Below, one piece after another: positions 3,525 through 64,000 of a stretch of DNA of 64,000 nt. Position numbers and translations under genes: made by a program. Every line of letters begins with the position of its first letter. Position 1 is the stretch's first letter. The notes below the pieces were generated by a model that was not told the DNA's origin, searched no databases, and worked only from the letters and a program-made list of their open reading frames with translations. This stretch comes from Luteimonas sp. (lineage in GTDB: Bacteria > Pseudomonadota > Gammaproteobacteria > Xanthomonadales > Xanthomonadaceae): positions 434,001-498,000 of the forward strand of contig JANPZU010000008.1 of the NCBI GenBank assembly GCA_024707405.1. Reading direction: 5' to 3'.

Positions 3525-4640
3525 TCAGAACAAGCTGCCCTGTGGCGAGGGCGGCGTCGATGGCGCAGGCGGGCGGAAACGGCTGCAATCCAGCGGCGGC
3601 AGGCGGCCGAAACCGAGTCGTCGGCATGCCCGGGAGAAACGTGCGGCCAGCAGGTCGGCGAACGGCCCCTCGCCGCGCATCCGGCGACCGAAGGCACTGT
3701 CGTAATCCTTGCCACCGCGCATCTGCCGAACCAGGCTCATCACGTGCCCGGCGCGCTCGGGATAGTGCAGGGACAGCCATTCCCGCCAGACCTCCTTCAG
3801 CTCGTGCGGCAAGCGCAGCAACACGTGGCCCGCGGCACGTGCGCCAGCGGCGTGGGCGGCTTCGAGGATGGCCTCCAGTTCGTGGTCGTTGATCATCGGG
3901 ATCATCGGCGCCGCCATCACCCCGACCGGGATGCCCGCCTCGGCCAGCATGCGCATCGCCTTGAGCCGCGCGTGCGGCGCGGAGGCACGAGGTTCCATCC
4001 GCGCCGACAGGCGGTTGTCGAGCGTGGTGACCGAGAAGTACACCGTCACCAGTCGCTCTGCCGCCAACGGTGCAAGCAGGTCGATGTCGCGCGTGACCAG
4101 CGCGTTCTTGGTGATCAGGCTGAAGGGGTGCCGGCATTCGGCCATCACTTCGATCAGCGCGCGCGTGATCCGGTAGCGCCGCTCGATCGGCTGGTAGGCA
4201 TCGGTGTTGATGCCCAGCGCGATCGGCGCGCAGCGGTATTTCGGTCGTGCGAACTCGGCACGCAAGCGCTCGGCGGCATTGGTCTTGGCGAACAGCCGCG
4301 TTTCGAAATCCAGGCCCGGCGACAGGTTGAGGTAGGCGTGCGACGGGCGTGCGAAGCAATACACGCAGCCATGCTCGCAGCCGCGGTACGGGTTGACCGA
4401 CTGGCTGAAGCCGATGTCCGGCGAATCGTTGCGGCTGACGATGCTGCGCGCCCGCTCTTCGCGCACGCGGGTGTCGGGATGCGGCGAAGGATCCTCCTCG
4501 CCGCGCGCATGCAACGAGCCCCAGCCGTCGTCCTCGGCGTGTGCGCTCGTCACCTCGTAGCGGCCGACCACGTACGACGCCGCGCCGCGTCCCTTGATCG
4601 CGGCATCGGCGCGGCGATGCATGGTGTCGCGGTTGTCCAT
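3525..4640 (-). CDS. Radical SAM protein, PA0069 family
   Basis: A 371-residue protein starting MDNRDTMHRR; an in-frame start further upstream would run towards the next gene, so the ATG at 4640 is preferred. The cluster-binding motif CEHGCVYCFARPSH (CX3CX2C) is near residue 100, after a conserved SVNPYRGCEHGC segment. The family resembles spore photoproduct lyase-like Rv2578c/PA0069 proteins, whose substrate is unknown to me. It should bind a 4Fe-4S cluster and S-adenosylmethionine. The C-terminal tail (PPAPSTPPSPQG) is low complexity. It lies 74 bases downstream of a tiny gene pair on the same strand and could be co-transcribed with it. Confidence 0.85.
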   Translation of the reverse strand: MDNRDTMHRRADAAIKGRGAASYVVGRYEVTSAHAEDDGWGSLHARGEEDPSPHPDTRVREERARSIVSRNDSPDIGFSQSVNPYRGCEHGCVYCFARPSHAYLNLSPGLDFETRLFAKTNAAERLRAEFARPKYRCAPIALGINTDAYQPIERRYRITRALIEVMAECRHPFSLITKNALVTRDIDLLAPLAAERLVTVYFSVTTLDNRLSARMEPRASAPHARLKAMRMLAEAGIPVGVMAAPMIPMINDHELEAILEAAHAAGARAAGHVLLRLPHELKEVWREWLSLHYPERAGHVMSLVRQMRGGKDYDSAFGRRMRGEGPFADLLAARFSRACRRLGFGRLPPLDCSRFRPPAPSTPPSPQGSLF

Positions 4641-4714
4641 GGCGCGACGATACGCCCGCGCCGTCGCAGGCCCGGAGACGACGGCACCCTGCCAAGGCTG
4701 CCGCGTCGTCGGCG

Positions 4715-4924
4715 TCACTCCTGTTGCAGGCGGTCGCGGAATGCCTTGAATACCGCCGCCTCGACGGCCGCCCCGCAGATCCGTCCCAGTAGTCGGGCGG
4801 CGTGGGCATCATCGGCCTGCACCGTCATCACGATGTGCCCGACCTTGCCTTTGTAGATCCGGGTGACGACGCCAACGTCGGCCTCGGACTTCGATTCCTC
4901 ATTCCCCTCCATGTTGTCGGTCAT
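4715..4924 (-). CDS. Small protein B1 of a duplicated two-gene cassette
   Basis: A 69-residue protein starting MTDNMEGNEE that I do not recognise. After an acidic N-terminus it has a compact core, VVTRIYKGKVGHIVMTVQ, which looks like beta hairpins, then an amphipathic helix (AARLLGRICGAAVEAAVFKAFRDRL). The core aligns clearly with the protein at 63343-63570 (shared TRI, G, G-IV-TVQ, the R-L-R-C pattern, EA and RLQ). Its start lies 26 bases inside the end of the upstream small gene, so the two are translated together. No signal peptide or membrane segment is seen. It may form a complex with its neighbour. Confidence 0.72.
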   Translation of the reverse strand: MTDNMEGNEESKSEADVGVVTRIYKGKVGHIVMTVQADDAHAARLLGRICGAAVEAAVFKAFRDRLQQE

Positions 4925-5132
4925 CCTCCCGTCCCGTTGGCGCCGTTGTCGGCATCGTTTGCGACGGTGCGGCAGGAGCGATGGCGCCGTGCTGCGCACG
5001 CAGCCCGACCAGCAATTGCTGCAAGGCTTGTTCGCACAAGACGGCCAGGGCTTGTTCCTTCCAGGGTGACTCGTCGCTGATCCACAGGACCAGTTCGCCG
5101 GTCTGTGTCTTGATGCTTTTCTCGGTTGCCAC
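4899..5132 (-). CDS. Small protein A1 of a duplicated two-gene cassette
   Basis: A 77-residue protein starting at GTG (VATEKSIKTQ), chosen because AGGAGG lies 4 bases upstream. The core, IKTQTGELVLWISDESPWKE followed by QALAVLCEQALQQLL, suggests a small sheet then a helix. It aligns with the protein at 63146-63346: I-K/R-T, TG, D-S-WK, AL-V and QA occur at matching spacing. The tail is proline- and threonine-rich and probably disordered. It is followed by an overlapping partner gene. Family unknown; no catalytic motif is visible. The divergent neighbour is cardiolipin synthase across a 317-base gap. Confidence 0.72.
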   Translation of the reverse strand: MATEKSIKTQTGELVLWISDESPWKEQALAVLCEQALQQLLVGLRAQHGAIAPAAPSQTMPTTAPTGREDDRQHGGE

Positions 5133-5186
5133 ACGCCCTCCTTGGTCGTGACCCGTCCCGAACCCCCGGGTTGTCTGCCCCGCGCC

Positions 5187-5216
5187 CCAAAAAGTGACGT
5201 TTTTCGTCAGTTTTGG
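5187..5216. promoter_or_regulatory. Palindrome in the gap between small-gene pair and cls
   Basis: The 317-base gap 5133-5449 between the divergent small-gene pair and cls holds one clear structure: TGACG-TTTTT-CGTCA (5195-5209), embedded in CCAAAA...TTTTGG arms with a one- or two-base irregularity. It could be an operator for one or both divergent transcripts, or a hairpin in the small-gene leader. I see no convincing sigma-70 promoter and nothing else in the gap. Confidence 0.4.
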
Positions 5217-5449
5217 CTGTTGGTTTCTTTTCGTTCGTGCCTTCGGGCCGCCTGTCGCCACCGTCCCGGCTCGCGTTTCCGTTTCCTCGTCCGCGATGGC
5301 CCATGGGTTGCTCGGGTATCACGACGCGGTGGCCCGTGGACGTATGCAAAGGGCATGCCAGTGCCGAACCCTCGCCATGTTTGCCGCACTCCGTGCGAGC
5401 CCCTACCGTATGCCTGCGCGTTCGACCTTCGCTCTGTCCAGGCCTTTCC

Positions 5450-6889
5450 GTGATCGAGATCCTCGCCCGCTGGTGCGATGCCCTGTCCTCCGGCCCGTGG
5501 CTGGCGATCCTCGGGGCCGGATGGGTGCTCTACCTGGTCTTGCTGGGCGGGTGGATCCTGCTGCAGAAGCGCGAACCGGTCGCCACCCTGAGCTGGCTGC
5601 TGGGGCTAGCGGTGCTGCCCTACATCGGTTTCCTGGTCTACCACGTCTTCGGCCCGCAGAAGATCCACCGCCAACGCCTGCGCAGGTCGCGCACGCGGAC
5701 GTTGCTGCCGGACGTGCCGATGGATGCGGACGAGGAGGCGGCCGAGATCGCTCGCATGGTGCGCAGCGCGACGCGCATCCCGCCGTCCTCGGCGACGGAC
5801 GTGCGCCTGCTTGTGGATGGCGCGGCCAAATTCGCCGCACTGGTCGACGACATCCGTGCGGCCCGCCACCACGTCCACCTTGAGTACTACATCTGGCATC
5901 CCGATCGCAGTGGCACGGCGGTGCGCGATGCCCTGGTCGAGCGCGCCCGCGCGGGCGTCCGGGTGCGCCTGCTGCTGGATGCCGTGGGTGCCGCGGCCGC
6001 GCGCCGCTTCTTCGCCGAGCTGGTCGCCGCCGGCGGCGAACTGGCCTGGTTCCATCCACCGAAGTTCGGCCATGTCTGGGCGCGGCCATGGACCAACCTG
6101 CGCACCCATCGCAAGATCGTGGTGATCGACGGCAAGGTCGCCTTCACCGGCGGCATGAACGTCACCGACGACCAGAACGAAGCGCTGCGCGCGGATGCCT
6201 ACCGCGACCTGCACCTGCGACTCGAAGGCCCGATCGTGCATGCGCTGCAACTGGTGTTCGTCGAGGACTGGATCTATGCGACCGGGCAACGCGACCTGTT
6301 GTCCGACGTGGTGCAGCAGGCGCCAGCCGCCGATCCCAGGGCCACGATCCCCGCGCAGGTGCTGGTGTCGGGCCCGGATTCGTCGTGGGAGGCGATTCAC
6401 CGTGCGCATGTCAGCGCGATCCACGCCGCGAAGCACCGGGTGTGGATGACGACGCCCTATTTCGTGCCCGGCGAGGCCGCGATGATGGCGCTGACCTCCG
6501 CTGCGCTGGCGGGACTGGACGTGCGCCTGCTGGTGCCGCGGATGAGCGATTCGCGCCTGGTGACACTGGCGGCGCGTTCGTACTTCGGCCCGCTGCTGGT
6601 CGCAGGCGTGAAGATCCACGAGTACGGCCCGCGGATGCTGCACACCAAGTCCCTGCTGGTCGACGACGCCATGTGCATCATCGGCAGCGCCAACTTCGAC
6701 CATCGCAGCTTCCGGCTGAACTTCGAGGTGTCGGTGCTGTTCGACGATGCCGGGATCGCCTCGCAACTGCAGGCGTTGATCGAAGCCGACCTCATGCATG
6801 CGCCGCGTGTGCGCCAAGGGCGCCATCGTTCGCTGCTTGGCGCACGCCTGCCCGAAGCGTTGGCCCGCCTGCTCTCGCCGCTGCTCTGA
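5450..6889 (+). CDS. cls: Cardiolipin synthase (phospholipase D superfamily)
   Basis: A 479-residue protein from the GTG at 5450 (VIEILARWCD). Two N-terminal hydrophobic segments (about residues 15-35 and 45-65) anchor it in the inner membrane. Two HKD motifs follow: the first as HRKIVVIDGKVAFTGGMN, the second as HTKSLLVDDAMCIIGSANFDHRSF. The enzyme condenses two phosphatidylglycerol molecules, or phosphatidylglycerol with phosphatidylethanolamine, into cardiolipin. Length matches the family (about 480). The frame stays open upstream but with non-protein-like composition, which supports the internal start. The gene stands alone; the unlinked lipid-related context gives no further hint. Confidence 0.9.
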   Translation: MIEILARWCDALSSGPWLAILGAGWVLYLVLLGGWILLQKREPVATLSWLLGLAVLPYIGFLVYHVFGPQKIHRQRLRRSRTRTLLPDVPMDADEEAAEIARMVRSATRIPPSSATDVRLLVDGAAKFAALVDDIRAARHHVHLEYYIWHPDRSGTAVRDALVERARAGVRVRLLLDAVGAAAARRFFAELVAAGGELAWFHPPKFGHVWARPWTNLRTHRKIVVIDGKVAFTGGMNVTDDQNEALRADAYRDLHLRLEGPIVHALQLVFVEDWIYATGQRDLLSDVVQQAPAADPRATIPAQVLVSGPDSSWEAIHRAHVSAIHAAKHRVWMTTPYFVPGEAAMMALTSAALAGLDVRLLVPRMSDSRLVTLAARSYFGPLLVAGVKIHEYGPRMLHTKSLLVDDAMCIIGSANFDHRSFRLNFEVSVLFDDAGIASQLQALIEADLMHAPRVRQGRHRSLLGARLPEALARLLSPLL

Positions 6890-13948: not shown

Positions 13949-16391
<2,443 letters not shown>

Positions 16392-16473
16392 CTGCGTCGT
16401 CGTGGCATGGGCACCGGGGCGCACCAACCATGCGGTGGCCCGAGGCACCATAGATATAGAGTTTGAAGCGGGA

Positions 16474-16479
16474 ATTATA
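16474..16479 (-). promoter_or_regulatory. Extended -10 promoter of gyrB
   Basis: On the minus strand the sequence TGCTATAAT forms a perfect -10 hexamer with the TGn extension, 83 bases before the gyrB start. No good -35 box is found 17 bases upstream (CCGGGG), which fits an extended -10 type. It lies in the 122-base gap between recF and gyrB, so gyrB can be expressed apart from recF. Confidence 0.6.
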
Positions 16480-16513
16480 GCATCCGGGCGATGGCGCCCC
16501 GGGCGATCCCGGT

Positions 16514-17608
16514 TCAGCCCCGAGGGACGATCCGCCCTTGTTCCACGTGGAACACCACGCCCTGCTCCCCGACGCCTTGCTTGGTGCGGGGACGTTCCGT
16601 GCCGCTGATGAAAACCTGGGCGCCGCTCGCTTCGAGATAGGCCAGCACCCGCTGCTGGTGGCCTGGATCGAGCTCAGAGGCAAGGTCATCGAGCACGACG
16701 ACAGGCCAGCCACCGCCCACGTCTGCCGCCAATGCCTGTGCCTGTGCCATGAGGCAGGTCAGCGCCAGCAACTTGGCCTGCCCGCGCGAAAGGGTGTCCT
16801 GCCGGGCATCACTGGACAACTCGACCCCCCAATCCGCCCGATGCGGCCCGGCGGTGGTATGTCCCAGAACACGATCTCGCGTCCGCGCCAGCAGCAAGGC
16901 ATCCGCCAACGGCAGCTCCCCCTGTTTCCAGCCCGGGGAGTAACGGAGTTCAGGTCGCCCCAGTGTTGGCGCCAGGTCTTCGCACAAGGCGGGCATCTCT
17001 TCCTGCAGGCGTTCCAGGTAAGCCCGGCGATAACGGGTCAGGGGCTCCCCCGCATCCACCAACTCACGATCCCAACTGTCGAGCTGCGCGTCCGACCCGC
17101 CTGCCTTGAGCAAGGCGTTGCGTTGCTTGAGGGCGCGGGTGTAGCGACGCCAGACCGGGAAGAAATCTTGTTCCACGTGGAACAAGCCCCAATCCAGATA
17201 CCTTCGCCGCGGCTCTCCCCCGCCATCGATCAACGCGTGGCTACCCGGCTCGAAGCTCACGACGACCAGTGCCGCGCAGAGCTGGCTCAACTGGTCGACA
17301 CCTTCTCCATCCAGACGCCCCGTCCAGGTTTGACCCGCGTGGTGAAGGCCCGCCTTGCGAATACGGCCGGGCGTGCCTTCTTCCTGCCATTCGACGAAAA
17401 CCTCCAGCGCCTCCGTCCCGTGCCGGATCAAGCCGTCACGCACGCGTCCACGGAAGCTCCGCCCATAGGCCATCAGGTGCAGGGCCTCAAGGACGCTGGT
17501 CTTGCCGGCGCCGTTGTCGCCGATCAGCAGGTTGAGTCGCGGCCCGGGCTCCAGCCGCAGGGCTTCCAGGTTTCTCAGGTTTCGGGCTTCCAGCCTGAGA
17601 ACCTTCAT
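16514..17608 (-). CDS. recF: DNA replication and repair protein RecF
   Basis: A 364-residue SMC-like ATPase from the ATG at 17608 (AGGAAC lies 9 bases upstream; a GTG three codons earlier is possible). Walker A is [17 protein letters not shown], the signature [11 protein letters not shown], and Walker [18 protein letters not shown]. RecF loads RecA at gaps through RecOR. Gene order dnaA-dnaN-recF-gyrB is the classic one. Two parS palindromes lie within this coding sequence, each read as the peptide FHVEQ (in [10 protein letters not shown] and [10 protein letters not shown]). Confidence 0.95.
16539..16554. promoter_or_regulatory. parS site 1 (ParB binding)
   Basis: TGTTCCACGTGGAACA is a perfect 16-base palindrome matching the chromosomal parS consensus known from Pseudomonas and Bacillus relatives. 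It lies in the 3' end of recF, about 2.3 kb from the putative oriC. ParB would nucleate here to organise and segregate the origin. parA and parB are not in this window. Confidence 0.9.
17169..17184. promoter_or_regulatory. parS site 2 (ParB binding)
   Basis: A second exact copy of TGTTCCACGTGGAACA, 630 bases from the first and also within recF. Two identical 16-base palindromes in one gene, both in the same reading frame, make chance unlikely. Confidence 0.9.
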
Positions 17609-17631
17609 GGCCGGCACGTTCCTGCCACAGC

Positions 17632-17656
17632 AAAACGCCCGGATTGCTCCGGGCGT
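17632..17656 (-). terminator. Terminator between dnaN and recF
   Basis: On the minus strand ACGCCCGGA pairs with TCCGGGCGT across a 4-base loop, and TTTT follows. It starts 32 bases after the dnaN stop and ends 24 bases before the recF start, so dnaN and recF are probably partly uncoupled. Confidence 0.72.
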
Positions 17657-17687
17657 CTCGGGTTGCCGGAGGGCATGCCGGATCCGG

Positions 17688-18788
17688 TCACAGGCGCAGC
17701 GGCATCACCACGTGCCGGCATCGCTCGCTGCCGGCTTCACGCACCAGGGCGGACGAGTTGGCATCGCGCAACTGCAGCACCACGTGTTCGTCGCGCAGCG
17801 CGGTCAGGGCGTCAAGCAGGTAGTTGACGTTGAAGCCCACGGCGAGGGCGTCGACCTTGGTGTCGGCCTCGAGTTCTTCCTGGGCTTCTTCCTGCTCGGG
17901 ATTGTGGGCGTTGATCTTGAGCAGATCCGGCGACACCTCGATGCGGACGCCACGGTACTTCTCGTTGGACAGGATCGCCGCGCGCTGCAGGGATGCACGC
18001 AGCGCCTCGCGGTCGACCTTGACCTCGCGATCGGCACCGATCGGGATGACCGCTTCGTAATCGGGGAAACGGCCGTCGATGAGCTTGCTGGTGAAGGTGA
18101 CGTCGTCACGCTTGACCCGCAAATGGTTGCGGCCCATTTCCAGCACCAGTTCGCGGTCGCCGCCTTCCAGCAGGCGCTGCAGTTCCTGCACGCCCTTGCG
18201 CGGCACGATGATCTGGCGCTTGGTCTGCACCGTGGCGTCGAGCGCGGTTTCGCACAGGGCCAGGCGGTGGCCGTCGGTCGCGACGCAGCGCAGGCGACGA
18301 TCGGCCAGGTCGAACAGCAGGCCGTTGAGGTAGTAACGCACGTCCTGTTGCGCCATTGCGAACGCAGTGCGCTCGATCAGTTCCTTGAGTGCCGCTTCCG
18401 GCACGCTCACTCGTTCGGTCGCTTCCACTTCGTCGATCGACGGAAAGTCGTTGGCCGGCAGGCTGGCAAGGGTGAACCGGCTGCGACCGGCCTGCACCGT
18501 GATCTTGTCGCCGCTCTGCGAGACAGTGACCTTGCTGCCATCGGGCAGGGCACGGACGATGTCGAACAGTTTGCGGGCAGGAATGGTGGTCTCGCCGTCT
18601 TGGGCTTCGTCCACCGCGCTCCTGGAGACCATTTCGACTTCGAGGTCGGTGCCTGTCAGCGACAACTGCCCATCGTTGACCTGCGTCAGCAGGTTGGCCA
18701 GTACGGGCAGGGTCTGGCGACGTTCGACGACATTCACCACCTGAGCCAGTGGTTTCAGAAGGACTTCTCGTTGCAGGCTGAAGCGCAT
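17688..18788 (-). CDS. dnaN: DNA polymerase III sliding clamp (beta subunit)
   Basis: A 366-residue protein of normal length with the three-fold repeated clamp domain. N-terminal MRFSLQREVLLKPLAQVVNVVERRQTLPVLAN and C-terminal CRHVVMPLRL are characteristic; LTALRDEHVVLQLRD marks domain III. The dimer rings DNA and tethers polymerases, MutS, Hda and others. It is the second gene after dnaA, separated from it by the 329-base AT-rich gap interpreted as the origin. Confidence 0.97.
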   Translation of the reverse strand: MRFSLQREVLLKPLAQVVNVVERRQTLPVLANLLTQVNDGQLSLTGTDLEVEMVSRSAVDEAQDGETTIPARKLFDIVRALPDGSKVTVSQSGDKITVQAGRSRFTLASLPANDFPSIDEVEATERVSVPEAALKELIERTAFAMAQQDVRYYLNGLLFDLADRRLRCVATDGHRLALCETALDATVQTKRQIIVPRKGVQELQRLLEGGDRELVLEMGRNHLRVKRDDVTFTSKLIDGRFPDYEAVIPIGADREVKVDREALRASLQRAAILSNEKYRGVRIEVSPDLLKINAHNPEQEEAQEELEADTKVDALAVGFNVNYLLDALTALRDEHVVLQLRDANSSALVREAGSERCRHVVMPLRL

Positions 18789-19117
18789 GCGGAAGGGTTC
18801 CCTGTGGCCTGATGCTTTTAAAGACTGAAGTGATTTAAATCTAAAGGCGGTGGTGATGGGGGTTGGTCAAACCAGTGGAAAACACAAACAACCAATTGAT
18901 TTTAAAAGAAATTCTTGGAATCGAAAGGCTGCGGACAAGCGCTGGAATCGCGAATGGACAAGCTGTGGATGGTTTTGCCCCGAAACAGTTGTCCACAAGA
19001 TATCCGGATGCTGCCCCCATCAATCCCCAAACTCTCGTGGATAGACCGGAAGTGTACGCCGGTAGGCCGGCGAATCGAAGCGCCCGGCGGGGTTTGCGGC
19101 CAAGGGAAAGACGGACG
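18789..19117. other. Putative replication origin (oriC) in the dnaA-dnaN gap
   Basis: This 329-base non-coding gap is far richer in A+T than its surroundings. AT-rich runs lie at about 18817-18847 (TTTTAAAG, ATTTAAATCTAAAG) and 18889-18917 (CAATTGATTTTAAAAG). DnaA-box-like 9-mers are TTGTCCACA at 18989-18997 (one mismatch to TTATCCACA), TGTGGATGG at 18964-18972 and GTGGATAG near 19036 in the opposite sense. Position between dnaA and dnaN, nearby parS sites and diverging gene orientation on the two sides support an origin. The alternative is that it only regulates dnaN and that the origin lies upstream of dnaA. Confidence 0.7.
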
Positions 19118-20431
19118 TTATTCGCTGAGCTTGCGGATCAGCTTGTCCCAGTCTTCCCGCAGCTTGCCGTCGCTCTGCTGCAGCGTCCGGATCTGCCGGC
19201 AGGCGTGCAGCACCGTGGTGTGGTCGCGTCCGGCGAAGGCCTCGCCGATCTCCGGCAGGCTGTGCTCGGTGAGCTCCTTGGACAGTGCCATGGCCACCTG
19301 CCGCGGGCGGGCAAGTGAGCGCGTACGCTTCTTGCCGAGCAGATCCTTGATCTGCAGGCCGTAATAGTCGGCCACGGTCTTCTGGATGTTGGGGATGCTG
19401 ATCGCGGCCTGTTGCGCACGCAACAGGTCGCGCAGGGTTTCCTGGGCGAACTCGACCGTGATCGCCTGGCCGGTGAAGTTGGCGCGCGCGGCCAACGTGT
19501 TCAATGCGCCCTCGAGGTCGCGCACGTTGGAATGCATCTTCTTGGCCAGCAGGTAGGCCACATCGTCGGGCATCACCGTGCCGCGCTCGCGCGCCTTGGC
19601 CAGCACGATTTGCGCACGGGTCTCGAAATCCGGAGGATCGATCGGAACCGACAGTCCGGAAGAGAGGCGCGACTTCAGGCGCGGCTCCAGGCCTTCAACT
19701 TCCCGCGGGAAGCGGTCGCAGGTCATGATGATCTGCTGCTTGCCTTCGAACAGCGCGTTGAAGGTGTGGAAGAACTCTTCCTGCGTCCGATCCTTGCCGG
19801 CGAAGAACTGGATGTCGTCGATCAGCAACGCATCGACGCCCTGGAACTGGCGCTTGAAAGCATCCATGGCGCGTTCGTTGAGCGCCTTGATCATCGCGCT
19901 GAAGAACTGCTCCGAGCGCACGTACATCACCCGCATCGACGGGTTGTTGGCGCGCATGGCGTTGCCGGCGGCGAACATCAAGTGGGTCTTGCCCAGGCCG
20001 GTGCCGCCATAGAGCAGCAGCGGGTTGTGCGCGCGATCGCCAGGCTTCTGCGCAGCGTGCCAGGCCGCGGCGCGGCCCAGCTGGTTGCTGCGGCCCTCGA
20101 CGAAGTTGTCGAACGTGTAGTGGTTGTCCAGGTTGCCGGCGAATGCGACCGCCGGAGCCGAGGTCGTCGCCGTCTCCGGGTGGGCGGGCGCCTGCCGCGG
20201 GAGCGAACCGATTTCCAGCGCCACCTCGGCGATGCCGGCGTAGTGCGCCAGCAGCTCGCGGATGCGCGACAGGTACCGCGCCTGCACCTCGTCGCGGACG
20301 AAGGCATTGGGCGCGTAGAGCACCGTGCGATCGTCCAGGTTGCGGGCCTGCAGCGGGCGCAGCCACATGTGGACGTCATCCACCGGATACTCGGTTTCCA
20401 GGTGTTCGAGGCAGCGGGGCCAGGCGTCCAT
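19118..20431 (-). CDS. dnaA: Chromosomal replication initiator protein DnaA
   Basis: A 437-residue protein starting [16 protein letters not shown]; the open frame further upstream is cysteine- and proline-rich and unlikely to be translated. Domain I (about 1-75) is followed by a short linker, the AAA+ domain with Walker [17 protein letters not shown] and Walker [23 protein letters not shown], and the DNA-binding domain with the DnaA signature [20 protein letters not shown]. It opens oriC and controls its own and other genes. It reads leftwards, away from the divergent rpmH. Confidence 0.97.
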
Positions 20432-20570
20432 AGCGTTCTTGCAGGGGGAAAGACACCGCGCCGCGACAGGGGGAACCCCGGCGGCCTGCGGGCAAGTGGT
20501 GGAAGGGCACAGACTACCACCGGCATGCGCCGGCACGCAGCCATCGCCAAGGGGCTGGCAGGGGAAGCAG

Positions 20571-24389: not shown

Positions 24390-24505
24390 CGTGCAAGCTC
24401 ATGCGCTTGCAGGCCTGAAGGGCGGCGCGAAGGGAATGGCTTGCCCCAAGCGATGCCGGCCCCGATATGCTTGCAATCCGGCCGACTGACAGGGGGAAAG
24501 CTGCA

Positions 24506-26929
24506 GTGGCATTGAACGAAGAAGAAACCCGTTTCCACCTGATCGATCCGGTGTTGCGCAGCAAGGGCTACGACGACCCGCAGCGCATCAAGCTGGAAAC
24601 ACCCGCACCTGTCGAGCCCACCGGGCCGAAAGGCCGGCGCAGCAAGCGCAGCGGACGCACCGACTATCTGCTGTGCGTGCAGGTGGGCGACATGCCCAAG
24701 TGCCTGCCGGTGGCCGTGCTGGAAGCCAAGCGCGAAAGCGAAGACGCACTCAAGGGCATGGATCAGGCCAAAGCCTACGCCGATTGCAAACGCTTTGACG
24801 TGCACTACGTGTTTGCCACCAATGGCCACTTGTACGGCGAATTCGACAAGCCCAGTGGTCTCCAGACCGACCCGCATCCGCTGGCGGATTTCCCGGCGCA
24901 TGCCGATCTGTGCACCCGTTATGCCCACGACAAGGGCATCGACCTGACGGCCCCCGATGCGCAGGTGCTGTTCCAGGCCGACAGCCCGGCCTGGTCGCAA
25001 ACCCGCTATTACCAGGATGCCGCCATCCGCGCCGCCTTCGAGAAGATCATCCTCGAACGGCAAGCAGGCAACGCACCGCGCGTGCTGCTCACGCTTGCTA
25101 CCGGAGCGGGCAAGACCATCATTGCCACCAACCTGCTCTGGCGCATGGCGCAGGCCGGGCTGCTGCCAAAACCGGCGCTGTTCCTGTGTGACCGCGATGA
25201 ACTGCGCGAACAGGCCTACAGCAAGCTCAAAGCGGCCTTTGGCGGCAACGCCCGCATCGTGCAGACCGAGCGCGGCAAGAATGCCGCCGCCAATGCCCGC
25301 GTCCATATCGCCACCTACCAGACCTTGGGGATCGATGACGATGGCGATGGCAGCTTCCTCACCGACCACTACGGCGAAGATGCCTTCAGCGTCATCATCA
25401 TCGACGAATGCCACCGCAGCGCCTGGGGCAAGTGGTCGCAGGTGCTCACCCGCAACCCCGATGCCATCCACATCGGCCTGACCGCCACGCCACGCAAGCT
25501 CAAGCCGCCGAAGCAGCGAACGGCATCAAAGGATGTTGAAACGGCCATTGCTGCAGACGATGCCATTACCGCGCACAACGTGGCGTACTTCGGCGAGCCG
25601 GTGTACGAATACACCCTGGCGCAGGCACAGGAAGACGGTTATCTGGCCGCCTGCGAAATCATCAAGCGCAAGGCCGACATCGACGCCCGCGTGTTCACCC
25701 GCGAAGAAATCCTCAAGGCCGGTGTGCGCGACATCAAGACCGGCAAACCGCTCACCGAAGACGACCTGGCCAAGGCCGAATACACCGGCAAAGATTTCGA
25801 CGACGAACTGTTCATCGACCTGCGCACGCCAAAAATGTGCGAAGACCTGTTCAAGCTGCTGTGCGAGAACGGCGGGCCGGAGCAGAAGGTCATCATCTTC
25901 TGCACCCGCGACCTGCACGCCGACCGCGTGGCCATGCAGATGAACAATCTGTATGCCGCGTGGTGCAAGGCCAATGGCCGCGAGCGCAAGGACAGCTACG
26001 CCTTCAAATGCACCGCGGCGGCCGGTGCCGAGAAGATCGAAACCATGCGCGGCAGCGGCGAGCGCGACTTCATCGCCTGCACCGTGGACCTGCTGGAAGC
26101 CGGCGTGGACATCGAAAGACTGAACGCGGTGGTGTTCTTCCGCTACCTGCAATCGGCCATCAAGTTCTACCAGATGGTCGGGCGCGGCACCCGCATCCAC
26201 GAGGAAACGCAGAAGTACAAGTTCTGGCTGTACGACTACACCGGCGTCACCGACCTGTTCGGCACCGACTTCATCACCGTGCCGCCGCGCAGTGGTGGTG
26301 GCGGTGGAAAACCTGGTGGTGGCGAAGGCGGCGATGAAGGCGAAGGTGACGATGGCGCGCCGCCGGTTCCCGGCATTGGCGGGCAGCCCGTCATCATCAA
26401 CGCCCAAGGTCGCTTTATCCTGGCCAACCGCAACGGACAGGCCACGCCGATTCCGGTGGACGAATACCGCCGCGAAGTCATTGCCCGCGTGTTGAGCGAA
26501 GCGCACAACCTCGATGACTTCCGCGCCCTGTGGGTCGAGGCAAAAAAGCGCCGGCAATTGATCGATCACCTGCTGGGCGATCACTTCAGCCCGGACGTGA
26601 TCCGCGATGTGGACAAGATGAACGACTTCGACCTGTACGACTTCTTCGGCAAGCACGGCTACCACACCCGCGCCCTGCGCAGGCCGGAACGTGGCGCGGC
26701 CTATGTCAGCGCCCATGCGGCGTGGTTCGATGGCATGCAGGCCAAGACCGCCATCGTGCTCAAGGGACTGGGCACGCAGTTCGCGCAGGGCGGCACCGAT
26801 GCGCTGGAAGCCAACGCCCTGTGGGACGTGCCCGATATCCGGCAAGCGGGCGGCATCGAAGCGCTGCGTGCACTCGGCAGGCCCGCGGAGGTGATGCAGG
26901 ACGCGAAGATGAGGTTGTTTGGGGTATGA
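24506..26929 (+). CDS. hsdR: Type I restriction enzyme R subunit (EcoEI-like)
   Basis: An 807-residue protein from the GTG at 24506, which follows an AGGGGGAAAG ribosome site. The N-terminal nuclease domain has the PD-(D/E)xK pattern (GRTDYLL then VAVLEAKRESED). The SF2 translocase motor follows: Walker A LATGAGKTIIATNLLW, DECH box IIIDECHRSAWGKW, motif III GLTATP and motif VI MVGRGTRIHEET. After a glycine-rich stretch (SGGGGGKPGGGEGGDEGEGDDG) comes the EcoEI-type C-terminal domain that binds the methylase. It translocates and cuts unmodified DNA. It opens a four-gene operon and overlaps hsdS by 4 bases. Confidence 0.93.
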   Translation: MALNEEETRFHLIDPVLRSKGYDDPQRIKLETPAPVEPTGPKGRRSKRSGRTDYLLCVQVGDMPKCLPVAVLEAKRESEDALKGMDQAKAYADCKRFDVHYVFATNGHLYGEFDKPSGLQTDPHPLADFPAHADLCTRYAHDKGIDLTAPDAQVLFQADSPAWSQTRYYQDAAIRAAFEKIILERQAGNAPRVLLTLATGAGKTIIATNLLWRMAQAGLLPKPALFLCDRDELREQAYSKLKAAFGGNARIVQTERGKNAAANARVHIATYQTLGIDDDGDGSFLTDHYGEDAFSVIIIDECHRSAWGKWSQVLTRNPDAIHIGLTATPRKLKPPKQRTASKDVETAIAADDAITAHNVAYFGEPVYEYTLAQAQEDGYLAACEIIKRKADIDARVFTREEILKAGVRDIKTGKPLTEDDLAKAEYTGKDFDDELFIDLRTPKMCEDLFKLLCENGGPEQKVIIFCTRDLHADRVAMQMNNLYAAWCKANGRERKDSYAFKCTAAAGAEKIETMRGSGERDFIACTVDLLEAGVDIERLNAVVFFRYLQSAIKFYQMVGRGTRIHEETQKYKFWLYDYTGVTDLFGTDFITVPPRSGGGGGKPGGGEGGDEGEGDDGAPPVPGIGGQPVIINAQGRFILANRNGQATPIPVDEYRREVIARVLSEAHNLDDFRALWVEAKKRRQLIDHLLGDHFSPDVIRDVDKMNDFDLYDFFGKHGYHTRALRRPERGAAYVSAHAAWFDGMQAKTAIVLKGLGTQFAQGGTDALEANALWDVPDIRQAGGIEALRALGRPAEVMQDAKMRLFGV

Positions 26930-28107
26930 AGCTTGGTGATGTTGCCGATATTGTTGCTGGATTTGCATTCTCGGAGAGCTATCAAGGGCGAACCAATCTG
27001 CCAACACCATTTATCAAGGTCAGTGATTTCGCGGCGGCAAAGGAATCTTGGATTTCGAGCGCAGCAAATACGGTGGATGACAGTTTGCTGCGATTGATAA
27101 GGGCAAAGGTGTATCCCGCAGGCACAGTCATCTTCCCTAAAGTTGGTGGCGCATTGCTGACAAACAAACGTGCTCGTTTAGAGGTCGCGGCAACGTTTGA
27201 TAACAATGTTATGGGCTTGATTCCTCGTAGGGTCGATGGCGATTACTTGTTTTGGTTCATGCGCCAATTTGATATGGCGAAACTTGCCAACACACAGGCG
27301 ATACCATCGGTGCGCTCAAGTGATGTCGCACAAATCGAAATTCCAGTTCCTAACCTTCTCGAACAACGCAAAATCGCCGCACGCCTGAAAGCCCAACTGG
27401 CCGAAGTCGAAACCGCACGGCAGGCCGCGCAGGCGCAGGTCAAGGATGCGCAACGGCTGCGAACCAGAATCATGGATGCCTTGTTCGACAAGATCCATGA
27501 CTGGCAGCCCATTTCTGCCGTTGCAAAAGTGCAGTCCGGCTATGCCTTCAAAAGCGAGAACTTCACGACATCGGGCGTACGCTTGCTTCGGAACACCAAC
27601 ATCCTGCCCGGTAAAGTCTATTGGGATGAGGTTGTGTATCTGGACGAGGAAGAAGCTCGCAAGTATCCAAGCTATGTGCTTGCAGAGGGTGACATTCTCA
27701 TCAGCCTCGATCGTCCCTTGATATCAAGCGGAATCAAGGTGGCTCGAATCAGTAAAAGTGATTTGCCAGCATTGCTTCTTCAGCGTGTTGGACGGTTCCT
27801 CTTGAAGCCGGGAGCAGTTGATCCTGATTTCTTGCATGTGTTTTTGCAGTCATCACGGTTTGTGGCTGAAATATCAGGACACGATCAAAGTCTTGGCGTT
27901 CCCCATATATCACCGGGTCAAGTCGAGGCGATTGAATTGCCAGCGCTTCCAATAGAAAAACAACGGGAAGTTGCAACACACCTGAAAGCCCAACTCGCCG
28001 AAGCCGACGCCATCCACCGGGCCGCCACCGCGCAACTGGCCGAGATCGAATTCCTGCCGCAGCAGCTGCTGGCGCAAGCTTTTCCATCACAAGGAGACGT
28101 GAAATGA
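26926..28107 (+). CDS. hsdS: Type I restriction specificity subunit
   Basis: A 393-residue protein, start ATGA-coupled to hsdR. It has two target recognition domains (about residues 1-140 and 190-345), each followed by a conserved helical spacer (EQRKIAARLKAQLAEVETARQAA and EKQREVATHLKAQLAEADAIHRAA). These spacers are homologous to each other, the classic half-repeat layout. The recognition domains are clearly poorer in G+C than the spacers and the neighbouring genes. Each domain reads one half of a bipartite target, which cannot be predicted from the sequence here. Confidence 0.92.
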   Translation: MKLGDVADIVAGFAFSESYQGRTNLPTPFIKVSDFAAAKESWISSAANTVDDSLLRLIRAKVYPAGTVIFPKVGGALLTNKRARLEVAATFDNNVMGLIPRRVDGDYLFWFMRQFDMAKLANTQAIPSVRSSDVAQIEIPVPNLLEQRKIAARLKAQLAEVETARQAAQAQVKDAQRLRTRIMDALFDKIHDWQPISAVAKVQSGYAFKSENFTTSGVRLLRNTNILPGKVYWDEVVYLDEEEARKYPSYVLAEGDILISLDRPLISSGIKVARISKSDLPALLLQRVGRFLLKPGAVDPDFLHVFLQSSRFVAEISGHDQSLGVPHISPGQVEAIELPALPIEKQREVATHLKAQLAEADAIHRAATAQLAEIEFLPQQLLAQAFPSQGDVK

Positions 28108-28952
28108 CCGGAAAGCATCCCAAACCACATCAGGCCACCTTCGATGCCATACGCCGCATCGACGCAACCGGCAGCGAGTACTGGCTGGCACGCGAACTCG
28201 CGCCCTTGCTGGACTACGCGCAGTGGCGCAACTTCATGCAGGTGGTGGACAAAGCGAAACTGGCCTGCCAGCAGAGCGGAAATCAGGTGTCAGACCATTT
28301 TGCTGATATCAGCAAAATGGTCGAAATTGGCTCCGGTGCCCAGCGCGAAGTCGAGGACGTACAGCTCTCCCGCTACGCCTGTTACCTGATCGTGCAGAAC
28401 GGCGACCCCTCCAAGCCGGTGATTGCCAACGGCCAGACTTACTTTGCCCTGCAAACCCGTCGGCAGGAACTGGAAGACGACCGCAAGTTCGCCCAGCTGA
28501 ACGAAGATGACAAACGTCTTGCCATTCGCAACGAGCTGGCTGTGCATAACAAGCACCTCGCCGCAGCAGCGAAAGATGCCGGGGTGGACAGTCCGCTGGA
28601 TTACGCCATCTTCCAGGACCACGGTTACAAGGGGCTGTATGGCGGGCTAGGTGCCAAGGAGATCCACGCCCGCAAAGGCTTGAAGAAGAGCCAGAAAATC
28701 CTCGACCACATGGGCAGCACCGAATTGGCGGCCAACCTGTTCCGCGCCACGCAGACCGAAGAAAAGCTGCGACGGGACCAGCCGCGGGACAAGACGCAGG
28801 CCAACCGTACCCACCAGGCTGTCGGACAGAAGGTCCGCCAGACCATCCAGGAACTCGGCGGCACCATGCCGGAACACCTGCCCGCACCCGAAAGCAGCAT
28901 CCGGCAACTCGAGTCGGCCAAGAAGAAACAACTGAAAAAGAAAGAGACGTAA
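28104..28952 (+). CDS. dinD: DNA damage-inducible protein D
   Basis: A 282-residue protein matching E. coli DinD across its length: an N-terminal Bro-N/antirepressor-like half (YWLARELAPLLDYAQWRNFMQVVDKAKLAC, DVQLSRYACYLIVQNGDPSKPVIANGQTYFALQTRRQELE) and a C-terminal half (FQDHGYKGLYGGLGAKEIHARKGL, ILDHMGSTELAANLFRATQTEEKL). In E. coli it is SOS-induced and inhibits RecA-mediated strand exchange. Here it overlaps hsdS by four bases and hsdM by one, so it is co-expressed with the restriction system. The C-terminus is lysine-rich. Confidence 0.92.
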   Translation: MTGKHPKPHQATFDAIRRIDATGSEYWLARELAPLLDYAQWRNFMQVVDKAKLACQQSGNQVSDHFADISKMVEIGSGAQREVEDVQLSRYACYLIVQNGDPSKPVIANGQTYFALQTRRQELEDDRKFAQLNEDDKRLAIRNELAVHNKHLAAAAKDAGVDSPLDYAIFQDHGYKGLYGGLGAKEIHARKGLKKSQKILDHMGSTELAANLFRATQTEEKLRRDQPRDKTQANRTHQAVGQKVRQTIQELGGTMPEHLPAPESSIRQLESAKKKQLKKKET

Positions 28953-58594: not shown

Positions 58595-58642
58595 GACAGG
58601 CTCCGGCGGGATATCGACGGATGGTAGCGCGTCGCCGCAGGT

Positions 58643-59935: not shown

Positions 59936-59984
59936 GGCGGGGTTCCGGAAGTGATGAGGCGATGTTAGCGCAGCGACCGCCGCG

Positions 59985-62852
59985 TCATTCCACCGCCGGC
60001 TCGAAGCGGCCTTCGCGCGCGACGTCCGCGATCCGGCCGTTGGTGACGCGTACGGCCATGTGTTCCGGGCCGAATGCCGCGAGGAAATGATCCCGGGCCT
60101 CGACCAGGCGGGTGCCTGCCAGCGCGGGGTCGTTGCGGTCTTGCGCGACCGCGGCACGCAAGGTGTGCACCAGCCCCAGGGTGAACTTGTTGTTGGTCGA
60201 GTCCTGGTGGTCGCGCAGCGGCGGGATCAGTCCTTCCAGGATTGCGTCGGCCTCGGCCAGGTCGCCTTCGCGCAGATGCAGCTGCGCCTGCATGTATTCG
60301 TTGTAGAAACGAGCGTTGTAATTGGCCGGGAACCGGGCCAGCACCTCGCGGTTGTCGGCAAGCAGGCGATGGGCGCGCTTGGCGTCGCCGGGTTCGCCGC
60401 GGTGCGACAAGGCATTGGCGAGGGTGATGGCGAACAACGGGATCAGCGGCACGTGGCCGCTGTCGCGCAGTATCGATTCATAGACTTCGATCACTTCATC
60501 GAGGTTGCGCTTGCGTTCGGCGGACGACGTATCGAGCGCAAGCAGGGTTCGCCGGCCGTACTGTGCGCGGATGCGTTGCACTGCATCGTGGTTGCTCGGG
60601 TAGCGGGCGCTGTAGATGGCATCCGCGCGACGCAGGTACGAGAGGCTCTCTTCGCGCAAGCCGTCGCGGCCTGATGCAAGCAGTGCCTGGATCCGCAGCA
60701 CGTTGGCATGTTCGGGGTGATCGTCGCCGTAGCGTTCGAGGATGACCTGCTCCCCGTTGCGCAACGACGTCTCGCATTGATCGAACCAGGCGCGACCGCA
60801 CTGCAGGTTGGCCAGCAGGATCCAGGTGCGGGCGGTCAGCGGATGCGTGTCCCCGAGCACCTTGCGGTAGTCGTCGAGCAAGCGCTCGGCAATGGCATAG
60901 CCCTCCTCGTTGCGTTCCTGTTGCAGCAGGTTGTTGATCGTCATCCGACGGGCTTCGTTGGCGACCAGGGGCGAGGCCGGGGCGGCGAGTTCGATGGCGC
61001 GCTGCAAGTCGGCGCCGGCTTCAGAGAACAGGAACATCCGGCTGTTCCAGCCGCCACGCAGGATCAGCAGTTCGGCTTCCACGGCCGGGTCGCCGGCCTG
61101 CCGGGCGATGGTGAGTGCGTGGTCGAGCATTTCGCGCGCGGGCCGCTGTTCGGCCAGGTTCCAGTGGCTGCGTGCAGCTTCGGTCATCAACTGCAGGCGG
61201 ACATGGGCGGTGGCTGCCGGCGCTTGCCCGGACAGGGCTTCGCGAGCGACGCGCAGCGCGTCGTCATGCCGGCCTTGCAGGTTGAGCAGGGAGGCCCGGG
61301 TGGCCTGGTTGGCCGTCGTGGAGGCGGCATCGCTGCCGTGCAGCCCCGAGGCTTCCTCGGCCAGGGCGAGCGCGCGGTCGTAATCGCCGATCACCGCGTG
61401 GTTGCGGGCGAGCATCGACAGGCCCTGCGCGAGGATCCGTGGCTGGTCGCGCAGCGACAGCGAGCGCATGCGTTGTTCGGCGTGTTCGAGCAGCGATTGC
61501 GACGACAGCGCGGTTTCACCCAGGCCGGTCAGCGTCGCAGTACCGAGGGTTTCCTCGAAGATTCGCGACAGTGCCGCGCTGGAGCGGGCCTCCTCGGCCG
61601 CGCGTTGCATGTGCCACAGCGCAAATCCGCCCCCCGCGACGAGCGCGAACGCAGCGACGGCGGACAGGCCGACGGCCATTCGGTGCCTGCGCACGAAGCG
61701 GGACAGCCGGTACCCGGCACCGCCATTCCGTGCAGCGACCGGGCGCGAATGCAGCCAGCGCTCGAGATCGTCGCGCAGTGCCGCGACCGACGGATAGCGT
61801 GCGTCGGGGTCGGCGGCAACGCAGCGCGAGGCGATGGCGTCGAGGTCGCCCGCGAGCCGTCGGGAGAGCGATGGTGCATCCTGCAGTCCGCGATGGCGTG
61901 CGGCATCGTCGTCGACACGCGATGCCAGTTGCGACATCGATGCAACGGGGCGGGCATCGGCATCGCATGCCAGCAGCAGGCGCGAGGTGGCGGGCAGCGA
62001 ACCGCAAAGCAGGCGGTACATCACCATGCCCAGCGACCAGACGTCCATCGTGGTCGATGGCGGCGCCCCCGAAACCGCTTCGGGCGCCGTGTATCCCTCG
62101 GAGATGGCGATGCGCGGCATGTGTTCGCCTGCCGACAACGATGCGGCCAGGCCGAAGTCCAGCAACTGCAGTTGACCGTCTTCGGCGATGAGCAGGTTGG
62201 ATGGCTTGATGTCCTGGTGCAACACCATGCGCCCGTGTGCATACGCAAGCGCATCGCAGGCGCGGATCAGCAGCGTGACCCGTGCGCCCAACGGCAGTTC
62301 CCGCTGGTCGCACCATTCGTCGATCGGCGCGCCCTGTATGTAACGCATCGCGAACCAAGGCGCGCCATCTTCGTCGACGCCGCCATCGAACAGGGTTGCG
62401 ATGTTGGGATGATCCAGTCCCGCCAGGATCTCGCGTTCGCGACGGAAGCCTTCCAGTACGCGTTCCGACGCCAGTTCGAGGCGGATGCATTTCAAAGCGA
62501 CGCGTTGCCGGTACTGGCCATCGTCGCGCCAGGCTTCGTAGACCGTGCCCATGCCGCCCGCGCCGATCATGCGCTCGATGCGCCACGGGCCTTTGCGCGT
62601 GCCGATCCGCGGATCCGGATGGTCGTCGTCGCCGGCATGTCGGGCAAGCAGGGCTTCTGGCGGCGAGTCCAGCACGTGCTGCAGGCCGGCGACGCCATGC
62701 AGTGCATCGTCGGAAGCGAGCAGCGAGGCGAGCGCGTCGTGGACACCGGGATCCTCCCGGCGCAGGTCGGCCAAGGCGCGGCGGCGCTGCCCCGGCGACA
62801 TGCCGATGTAGGTGTCGAACAACGCAAGGGCGCGGGAAGCCTGCGAGCTCAT
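59985..62852 (-). CDS. Membrane Ser/Thr protein kinase with TPR-like sensor domain
   Basis: A 955-residue protein starting MSSQASRALALFD. The N-terminal 85 residues are helical. The kinase domain (about 90-390) has the glycine loop IGAGGMGTVYEA (97-102), VALK lysine 121, a catalytic loop reading HQDIKPSNLL (212-214 HQD, where HRD is usual), DFG (232-234) and APEAV. A membrane helix follows at about 410-432 (VGLSAVAAFALVAGGGFALW), then 500 residues of TPR-like helices outside the membrane (NLQGRHDDALRVAREAL, AEADAILEGLIPPLRDHQ). The layout fits ECF-sigma-linked kinases, and an ECF gene lies upstream. Confidence 0.9.
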   Translation of the reverse strand: MSSQASRALALFDTYIGMSPGQRRRALADLRREDPGVHDALASLLASDDALHGVAGLQHVLDSPPEALLARHAGDDDHPDPRIGTRKGPWRIERMIGAGGMGTVYEAWRDDGQYRQRVALKCIRLELASERVLEGFRREREILAGLDHPNIATLFDGGVDEDGAPWFAMRYIQGAPIDEWCDQRELPLGARVTLLIRACDALAYAHGRMVLHQDIKPSNLLIAEDGQLQLLDFGLAASLSAGEHMPRIAISEGYTAPEAVSGAPPSTTMDVWSLGMVMYRLLCGSLPATSRLLLACDADARPVASMSQLASRVDDDAARHRGLQDAPSLSRRLAGDLDAIASRCVAADPDARYPSVAALRDDLERWLHSRPVAARNGGAGYRLSRFVRRHRMAVGLSAVAAFALVAGGGFALWHMQRAAEEARSSAALSRIFEETLGTATLTGLGETALSSQSLLEHAEQRMRSLSLRDQPRILAQGLSMLARNHAVIGDYDRALALAEEASGLHGSDAASTTANQATRASLLNLQGRHDDALRVAREALSGQAPAATAHVRLQLMTEAARSHWNLAEQRPAREMLDHALTIARQAGDPAVEAELLILRGGWNSRMFLFSEAGADLQRAIELAAPASPLVANEARRMTINNLLQQERNEEGYAIAERLLDDYRKVLGDTHPLTARTWILLANLQCGRAWFDQCETSLRNGEQVILERYGDDHPEHANVLRIQALLASGRDGLREESLSYLRRADAIYSARYPSNHDAVQRIRAQYGRRTLLALDTSSAERKRNLDEVIEVYESILRDSGHVPLIPLFAITLANALSHRGEPGDAKRAHRLLADNREVLARFPANYNARFYNEYMQAQLHLREGDLAEADAILEGLIPPLRDHQDSTNNKFTLGLVHTLRAAVAQDRNDPALAGTRLVEARDHFLAAFGPEHMAVRVTNGRIADVAREGRFEPAVE

Positions 62853-63145: not shown

Positions 63146-63346
63146 ATGAACGGCGGACAGGACACCGGCGCCGGACATGTGGCGGTGCTGACCACGATCC
63201 GGACCAGCACCGGGCAGGTCACGTTGATCGTCAACGACGATTCGCACTGGAAGGCCAACGCGCTGTCGGTGATGTTGACCCAGGCGATCGGCGCCCTGGC
63301 GGGCATGCAGCCGCCGGGCGAGGCGGGGGCCTCGCCGCGGGCATGA
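63146..63346 (+). CDS. Small protein A2 of a duplicated two-gene cassette
   Basis: A 66-residue protein starting MNGGQDTGAG (GAGG lies 11 bases upstream). The core, IRTSTGQVTLIVNDDSHWKANALSVMLTQAIGAL, aligns with the protein at 4899-5132: I-T-TG, D-S-WK, AL-V and QA are shared at equal spacing. The frame is open further upstream, but without a good start. Its stop overlaps the start of the partner gene (ATGA). The 293 bases upstream (62853-63145), between this gene and the divergent kinase start, hold no other gene I can see. Family unknown. Confidence 0.72.
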   Translation: MNGGQDTGAGHVAVLTTIRTSTGQVTLIVNDDSHWKANALSVMLTQAIGALAGMQPPGEAGASPRA

Positions 63347-63570
63347 CGGTCGCTTCGGGAAAGGTGCCGGGGAGGCCCGTGGCCGAGCCGGCGGGCGATG
63401 GCATCGGCGACCCGGTGGCGACCCGGATCCTGCACGGGGATTGCGGTCGGATCGTGCTGACGGTGCAGGGCGCGTCCCCGGAACAGACGCGGATGCTGGC
63501 GCGCGTATGCACGGCAGGGTTGGAGGCCACCCTCCTGCGCGTCTACGGAGGCCGGTTGCAGCGGTTCTGA
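63343..63570 (+). CDS. Small protein B2 of a duplicated two-gene cassette
   Basis: A 75-residue protein starting MTVASGKVPG. After a flexible N-terminus the core is VATRILHGDCGRIVLTVQGASPEQTRMLARVCTAGLEATLLRVYGGRLQ. It aligns with the protein at 4715-4924 (TRI, G-IV-TVQ, R-L-R-C, E-A, RLQ). ATGA coupling with the upstream gene matches the overlap seen in the first cassette. It ends 8 bases before the convergent sigma-factor gene. No known motif, signal peptide or membrane segment. Confidence 0.73.
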   Translation: MTVASGKVPGRPVAEPAGDGIGDPVATRILHGDCGRIVLTVQGASPEQTRMLARVCTAGLEATLLRVYGGRLQRF

Positions 63571-63578
63571 GGCAGGCC

Positions 63579-64000
63579 TCAGTCGCCCGGCAGCAGCGAT
63601 TGCTCGGCATCGCCGAGTTGCGAATGCAGGAACGCCCTCGCCTTGCGCCAGTCGCGGCGGATGGTGCGTTCGGTGACACCGAGGATCTCGGCGACTTCCG
63701 GCTCGGTCAGTCCGCCGAAATAGCGCAGCTCCACCACGTCGGCGAGCCGGCTGTCGAGCCGGGCCAGGGCATTGAGTGCCTGGTCCAGGGACAGCAGTTG
63801 GTCGAGCGTGGAGGCCTGGCCGGGCTCCGGAGCCTCGTCGAGGGACAGCATCTCGGCGCCCTCCCCCCGCTTTTCCGTGAGCATCCGGCGGGTTTCATCC
63901 AGCAGGACGAAGCGCATTGCCCGTGCCATCAGCGTGATCAGGTGGGAGCGATCGTTGACCGCCATCGGGCTGCCGGCCAGACGCAGCCAGGTTTCGCTGA
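63579..64000 (-). CDS. ECF-type sigma factor, C-terminal part
   Basis: The gene runs off the window; about 140 C-terminal residues are present (the frame is open to the edge: SETWLRLAGSPMAVNDRSHLITLMARAMRFVLLDETRR). This is the pattern of the ECF subfamily that pairs with Ser/Thr kinases. Region 4 is intact with a helix-turn-helix: LDSRLADVVELRYFGGLTEPEVAEILGVTERTIRRDWRKARAFL. It probably directs transcription of envelope or secretion genes and may be controlled by the large kinase encoded downstream on the same strand. The small gene pair lies between them on the opposite strand. Confidence 0.88.
   Translation of the reverse strand, partial: SETWLRLAGSPMAVNDRSHLITLMARAMRFVLLDETRRMLTEKRGEGAEMLSLDEAPEPGQASTLDQLLSLDQALNALARLDSRLADVVELRYFGGLTEPEVAEILGVTERTIRRDWRKARAFLHSQLGDAEQSLLPGD

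Follow-up and report, generated by a model that had tools for sequence, protein, structure and literature searches.

Two divergent copies of a rare cassette of paired small genes in a Luteimonas genome

The cassettes of the window

The window, by which we mean the whole stretch of 64,000 nucleotides analysed (434001–498000 of its contig), belongs to a genome of 3.22 Mb in 8 contigs and carries two pairs of small overlapping genes, A1–B1 (copy 1) and A2–B2 (copy 2; Table 1). A preliminary description of this DNA had proposed that the pairs are two versions of one cassette, and the coordinates, strands and sizes that it gave for all four reading frames were recovered unchanged. The 4 bp overlap of A2 and B2 was confirmed. 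The 26-base overlap reported for A1 and B1 holds if B1 starts at 4924; if translation begins at the next ATG (4912), as used by the relatives P0004 and P0005, the overlap is 14 bp. The GTG start of A1 is preceded by AAGGAGGGCGT. The ribosome site of A2 is weak, and compared with its relatives P0006, P0007 and P0008 the protein lacks four helix residues, the cysteine of the family included, through a loss that is in frame.

Table 1. Cassette genes and neighbouring features in the window
Feature	Position	Strand	Remarks
A1, first gene of copy 1	4899..5132	-	77 aa, GTG start, P0001
B1, second gene of copy 1	4715..4924	-	69 aa, or 65 aa from ATG 4912
A2, first gene of copy 2	63146..63346	+	66 aa
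B2, second gene of copy 2	63343..63570	+	75 aa, 4 bp overlap with A2
Radical-SAM neighbour of copy 1	3525..4640	-	PF04055
Cardiolipin-synthase-type (PLDc_2) neighbour of copy 1	5450..6889	+	PLD-type
Extra DNA holding A1–B1	4690..5449		about 0.75 kb; ends approximate, by eye
Terminator-like palindrome upstream of A1	5195..5209		scored on both strands
Ser/Thr kinase with TPR, neighbour of copy 2	59985..62852	-	Pkinase, TPR_12
ECF sigma factor, neighbour of copy 2	63579..64000	-	PF07638; continues past the window end

First gene matches first gene and second matches second, as proposed earlier: the local BLOSUM62 scores were 82 for A1–A2 and 104 for B1–B2, and in neither case did any of 2000 shuffles score as high. 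When the whole genome was searched at E up to 10, A1 found itself and A2 (E 5e-5) alone, and B1 found itself, B2 (E 2e-7) and three further matches at E 0.46–0.81, which we dismiss as chance; no third copy was thus found in the 3.22 Mb searched with these two proteins. We conclude that one two-gene cassette is present twice, as the divergent copies A1–B1 and A2–B2. We regard the anatomy of the cassette as well supported, and the function discussed below as weakly supported.

The spacer that holds copy 1 is normally short, and the cassette is extra DNA there. The cardiolipin synthase noted earlier beside it proved to be of the PLD type (PLDc_2), and a radical-SAM gene lies on the other side; the homologous parts of these two genes are 897 bp apart in the window and 93–628 bp apart in 26 of 51 other genomes of the genus. 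They are separated by kilobases on one contig in 16 more, and in the remaining 9 they lie on different contigs or one part alone was found. By eye, the short conserved spacer is still present in the window beside the radical-SAM gene. The GC content of the inserted DNA (0.639) is ordinary for the window, and we therefore rejected a foreign composition; an RNA gene at this site was likewise rejected, since Rfam gave no match at 4500–5600. The search for terminator-like palindromes found 2 against 1.2 expected, which is not significant.

Elsewhere in the window, gyrB, recF, dnaN and dnaA follow one another at 13949–20536 (by eye), which places the window at the replication-origin region; gyrB is split into two overlapping frames, perhaps by a sequencing error. 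A set of genes resembling a type I restriction-modification system (helicase/R, S and M, by eye) occupies 24467–30882 and has a DinD/antirepressor-like gene inside it, and two tandem M20-type amidohydrolase genes at 57281–60157 look like a duplication (by eye).

Relatives and distribution of the cassette

A search of 5.8 billion proteins, which depends on shared five-letter words so that more relatives may exist, returned P0002 and P0006–P0008 as relatives of A, besides A1 itself, and P0003–P0005 as relatives of B. The A protein P0002 and the B protein P0004 come with the same longest-contig size (2067 bp), as do P0006 (A) and P0003 (B; 5353 bp), and the two genes of each pair are therefore probably adjacent.

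A survey of the pair across genomes, suggested in the preliminary description, showed that the cassette is rare. Among 52 genomes of the genus, two gave a match to the A profile: the window genome and that of another species, G120. Across 395 genomes of the family the B profile gave three clear matches (E ≤ 1.5e-35), all in the same 2 genomes, and weak matches (E 3e-4 to 0.1) in 65 others; at most 14–19 first-look candidates were scored per genome in the profile searches at family, order and class level, and these may therefore miss matches. Of the 28 stored loci with weak B-profile matches (L017–L044), all but L022 and L033 were read. Among these 26, one alone, L018, appeared by eye to be a gene of its own, and the rest were dismissed as chance. 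Two other candidates were set aside as chance: L008 (E 0.008) sits, by eye, in a thioredoxin/TlpA-like reading frame, and L009, from Acidobacteriaceae, is antisense to a long one.

The G120 cassette consists of A (79 aa) and B (76 aa), whose genes share 4 bp and are flanked by the end of an adhesin reading frame and by a gene for a BamE–OmpA lipoprotein. The adhesin frame spans about 3000 residues, the last 666 of which hold YadA anchor, stalk and head domains. The preliminary description had staked its proposal on homologues being adjacent in other genomes; they are so in G120, and the cassette therefore survives that challenge. It is a real two-gene unit of fixed order, with the same arrangement in both window copies and in G120, and we conclude that it is a rare accessory gene pair.

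Probable relationship of A, B and a single-gene form

The gene at L018, which we call S, is a 66-codon reading frame with an AAGGAGG ribosome site in G326, of genus g7, lying between LysR-type and aqpZ-type genes (named by eye). S scored 54–62 against three A proteins and 51–61 against three B proteins, and none of 1000 shuffles did as well in any comparison. A profile of the common core of A, B and S, run against 398 genomes of the order, made an independent match in G199, also of g7 (E 2e-11). This is the same S gene at the same place, again with AAGGAGG, and the two orthologues differ with pS 0.49 and pN 0.17, a ratio of 0.34. A single-protein search with S in 149 genomes had returned S alone, and the profile's finding of G199 in another sample means that absence from sampled searches is not proof. 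Beyond G199 there were 10 weak profile rows at order level and 2 at class level, which were left unread.

Comparison of the families with hhalign gave E 3e-5 and a probability of 73% for A with B, and E 2.8e-8 and 95% for A with S. We then aligned a hand-trimmed, gap-free core of 43 residues from 10 sequences, A2 being left out. The mean A–B score in this core was 27.4, reached by none of 20000 column permutations and compared with −17.4 for the best of 42 shifts; the A–S and B–S scores were likewise unmatched in 20000 permutations. A glycine in the hairpin is common to all 10 sequences, and a cysteine in the helix to 9, with serine in its place in G199. AlphaFold predicted a beta-hairpin followed by a long helix for both A1 (strands 3–8 and 13–18, helix 23–48; pLDDT 77.4, pTM 0.51) and B1 (strands 17–24 and 30–37, helix 40–68; pLDDT 76.0, pTM 0.55), with elements in identical order; the models are moderate because the alignments hold 7 sequences each.

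Direct comparison of single A and B proteins was more variable. Among 1000 shuffles, the observed score was reached by 0 for A3–B3 (the G120 pair), 1 for B1–A3 and 3 for A1–B2, and by 30 for A1–B1, 96 for A1–B3, 136 for B2–A3 and 242 for A2–B2. The weakness of the direct A1–B1 and A2–B2 similarity, together with an hhalign probability no higher than 73%, would suit the view that A and B are unrelated and resemble each other just as short beta-beta-alpha units. We find this improbable, since S is about equally similar to both and the core aligns without gaps around the shared glycine and the mostly shared cysteine. Neighbouring genes for proteins of one predicted fold, as expected of adjacent paralogues, were found here, though single pairs vary (0–242 per 1000 shuffles). 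That A and B are paralogues of each other, which is new here, we consider well supported; the beta-beta-alpha fold of both is predicted.

In the closest comparisons these sequences are constrained at the protein level, as in the S orthologues and in B1 against the G120 B (pN/pS 0.39). Values among distant A or B copies (0.62–0.77) say little, because synonymous sites are nearly saturated. This constraint bears on whether the reading frames are orphans without function, or copy 2 a decaying one, as might be supposed of frames so small and so nearly unknown elsewhere, and of A2 with its weak ribosome site and its in-frame loss of four helix residues. Both frames and overlaps are kept in all three cassettes, and the hairpin–helix models are moderately confident, so that, with the constraint, we believe absence of function to be very improbable.

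Family searches and possible mobility

The preliminary description knew no family for either protein, and significant matches were likewise lacking in Pfam, NCBIfam, PHROGs, PADLOC and PDB sequences. None of the four window proteins reached a family cut-off in Pfam or NCBIfam. For 12 aligned members of the family, Pfam at E up to 10 gave just DUF7401 (0.038) and TPGS1_C (0.086), PHROGs nothing significant (best E 0.10), and PADLOC a match to PglW in one member (E 6e-4), which we take as chance. A profile search of PDB sequences at E up to 10 found three unrelated chains, the best being EutN at E 0.065, and Foldseek against the PDB nothing significant (best E 0.88 and 1.8). Even if the signalling role discussed below fails, the cassette would represent an unannotated family, with no entry in the profile libraries searched.

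Two small overlapping genes of this kind might be a selfish or addiction module that travels from site to site, whether as a toxin–antitoxin pair or as a maintenance or immunity cassette of another sort. The rarity and patchiness of the pair (2 of 52 genomes of the genus), its occurrence in three unrelated places and the extra DNA at site 1 are all consistent with such a module. We nevertheless judge it unlikely. Toxin and antitoxin are usually unlike each other, but A and B seem to be paralogues that share one predicted fold; S, a gene without a partner, has kept its place in two species; the GC content is ordinary; and PADLOC, Pfam and NCBIfam (the last for the four window proteins) gave neither a significant family nor, in particular, any known toxin or antitoxin. 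No relatives of P0008 or B1 were found in phages and plasmids, nor of S in plasmids, and the A and B profiles found none in viral contigs; viral rows (best E 0.12) were not significant. A phage, plasmid or viral origin was rejected on these searches.

Neighbourhoods of the cassettes and of S

Copy 2 lies, as described earlier, between a Ser/Thr kinase (Pkinase and TPR domains) and an ECF-type sigma factor (PF07638). S is about 6 kb from a kinase/ECF pair in both G326 and G199, and in G120 the distance from A–B is about 13 kb to the kinase and about 21 kb to the ECF gene. At three of the four places occupied by the family, a kinase and a sigma factor are thus 0–21 kb away. A search of 97 kb around both cassettes found just one such kinase and one such sigma factor, the two adjoining copy 2, so that copy 1 is free of them for 18 kb to one side and 54 kb to the other. 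Five ECF sigma sites were counted in the window genome by DNA similarity. A radius of 1 kb around these sites covers 0.3% of the genome, a radius of 6 kb 1.9% and a radius of 21 kb 6.5%. On these figures copy 2 alone is striking by itself, and we regard the link, which was noticed after seeing the data, as no more than suggestive. No A–B pair was found beside the sigma-factor loci examined in G070, G144 and G120.

The position of the G120 pair, between the adhesin stop codon and the BamE–OmpA lipoprotein gene, raises the possibility that A and B assist trimeric autotransporter adhesins as accessory factors, comparable to SadB or TpgA but acting in the cytoplasm; co-transcribed adhesin helpers are described in PMC8151025. 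We viewed 15 adhesin loci of the genus, where many more anchors are listed, one locus being G120's own. The 14 others, with about 1.5 kb of flank each, held no A- or B-like frame among the downstream picks; some picks start inside the adhesin gene, and of those just the ends were used. At least five of the 14 (L050–L053 and L055) have, by eye, the same kind of lipoprotein directly after the adhesin. Adjacency to a trimeric autotransporter adhesin is thus seen for one of the three cassettes; neither window copy adjoins one, all five YadA anchors of that genome being elsewhere. No export signal is visible by eye in A or B, and Pfam searches gave no OmpA, BamE or SadB domain. Such a helper function is, in our view, unlikely. 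The absence of A–B from the sigma loci and from the 14 adhesin loci also indicates that the pair is dispensable at loci of both kinds.

ECF/kinase loci and trimeric adhesins may themselves be linked in the genus. In G000, G097, G120, G133, G136, G139, G143, G157 and G164 together, 11 ECF-sigma-like sites are no more than 10 kb from a YadA anchor, a count into which nine of the 52 genus genomes entered because the pair was visible in them. The surroundings of S and the kinase/ECF pair in G326 (L118, 5042–19001) include an OmpA-family protein and, by eye, a Ras-like small GTPase and a very large surface-type frame that runs off the stretch; those of S in G199 (L117) look alike.

A possible role for the pair

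We propose that a single small S-like gene, encoding a beta-hairpin and one long helix, was tandemly duplicated to give A and B, and that the overlap of the two genes, through probable translational coupling, would cause the sister proteins to be made together. A complex of the two had been suggested in the preliminary description; in our reading it would most likely be an obligate cytoplasmic heterodimer, like that of another paralogous pair of beta-beta-alpha proteins, and this heterodimer might serve as a small adaptor or modulator on surface-protein loci controlled by ECF sigma factors and Hanks kinases. The last step is weakly inferred. Our reason for tentatively favouring it is that a kinase and a sigma factor are near three of the four places and that an adhesin cluster holds one copy; we give the reading as a whole a probability of roughly 0.38. 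A bolder version, which we hold to be unlikely, would make the pair a movable heterodimeric switch, a new family of small beta-beta-alpha regulators in the Hanks-kinase/ECF-sigma circuits and adhesin operons of Lysobacteraceae, adding a third, protein–protein layer to the control of sigma factors by phosphorylation.

An action of the pair on kinase/ECF-sigma loci, if real, would add a third member to a signalling pathway described, in the part of the literature available to us, as a kinase and a sigma factor. The family, which is one gene in one genus and a pair in another, and whose pair is present twice, in diverged form, in a single genome, also offers a small example of one short gene perhaps becoming a pair.

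Comparison with known systems

RebB, associated with a killing trait, comprises small proteins in repeated clusters in the same bacterial family, and A and B are likewise small and repeated. We rejected this identity: a search of the genome with PF11747 gave no match, though control genomes were silent too, and RebB was absent among the Pfam matches of the 12 members.

The helpers of trimeric autotransporter adhesins, SadB and TpgA, invite comparison since the G120 pair lies in an adhesin gene cluster. They differ in acting in the envelope, according to PMC8151025, whereas A and B have no visible export signal and no OmpA or BamE domain.

The sigma factor and kinase beside copy 2 resemble the ECF43/Hanks-kinase systems EcfK/PknS, the model described in Xanthomonas, and EcfP/PknT, although the ECF43 label is putative here. 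In these systems the sigma factor is phosphorylated directly by the kinase, and a third small protein goes unmentioned in the part of PMC13147305 available. A and B differ from both partners in matching no sigma, anti-sigma or kinase family.

Among the closest known systems we also count the small subunits of KEOPS, Pcc1–Pcc2 and Pcc1–Gon7. Searches of Pfam with the 12 members, and of PDB sequences, at E up to 10 gave no sequence match of the Pcc1/Gon7 type.
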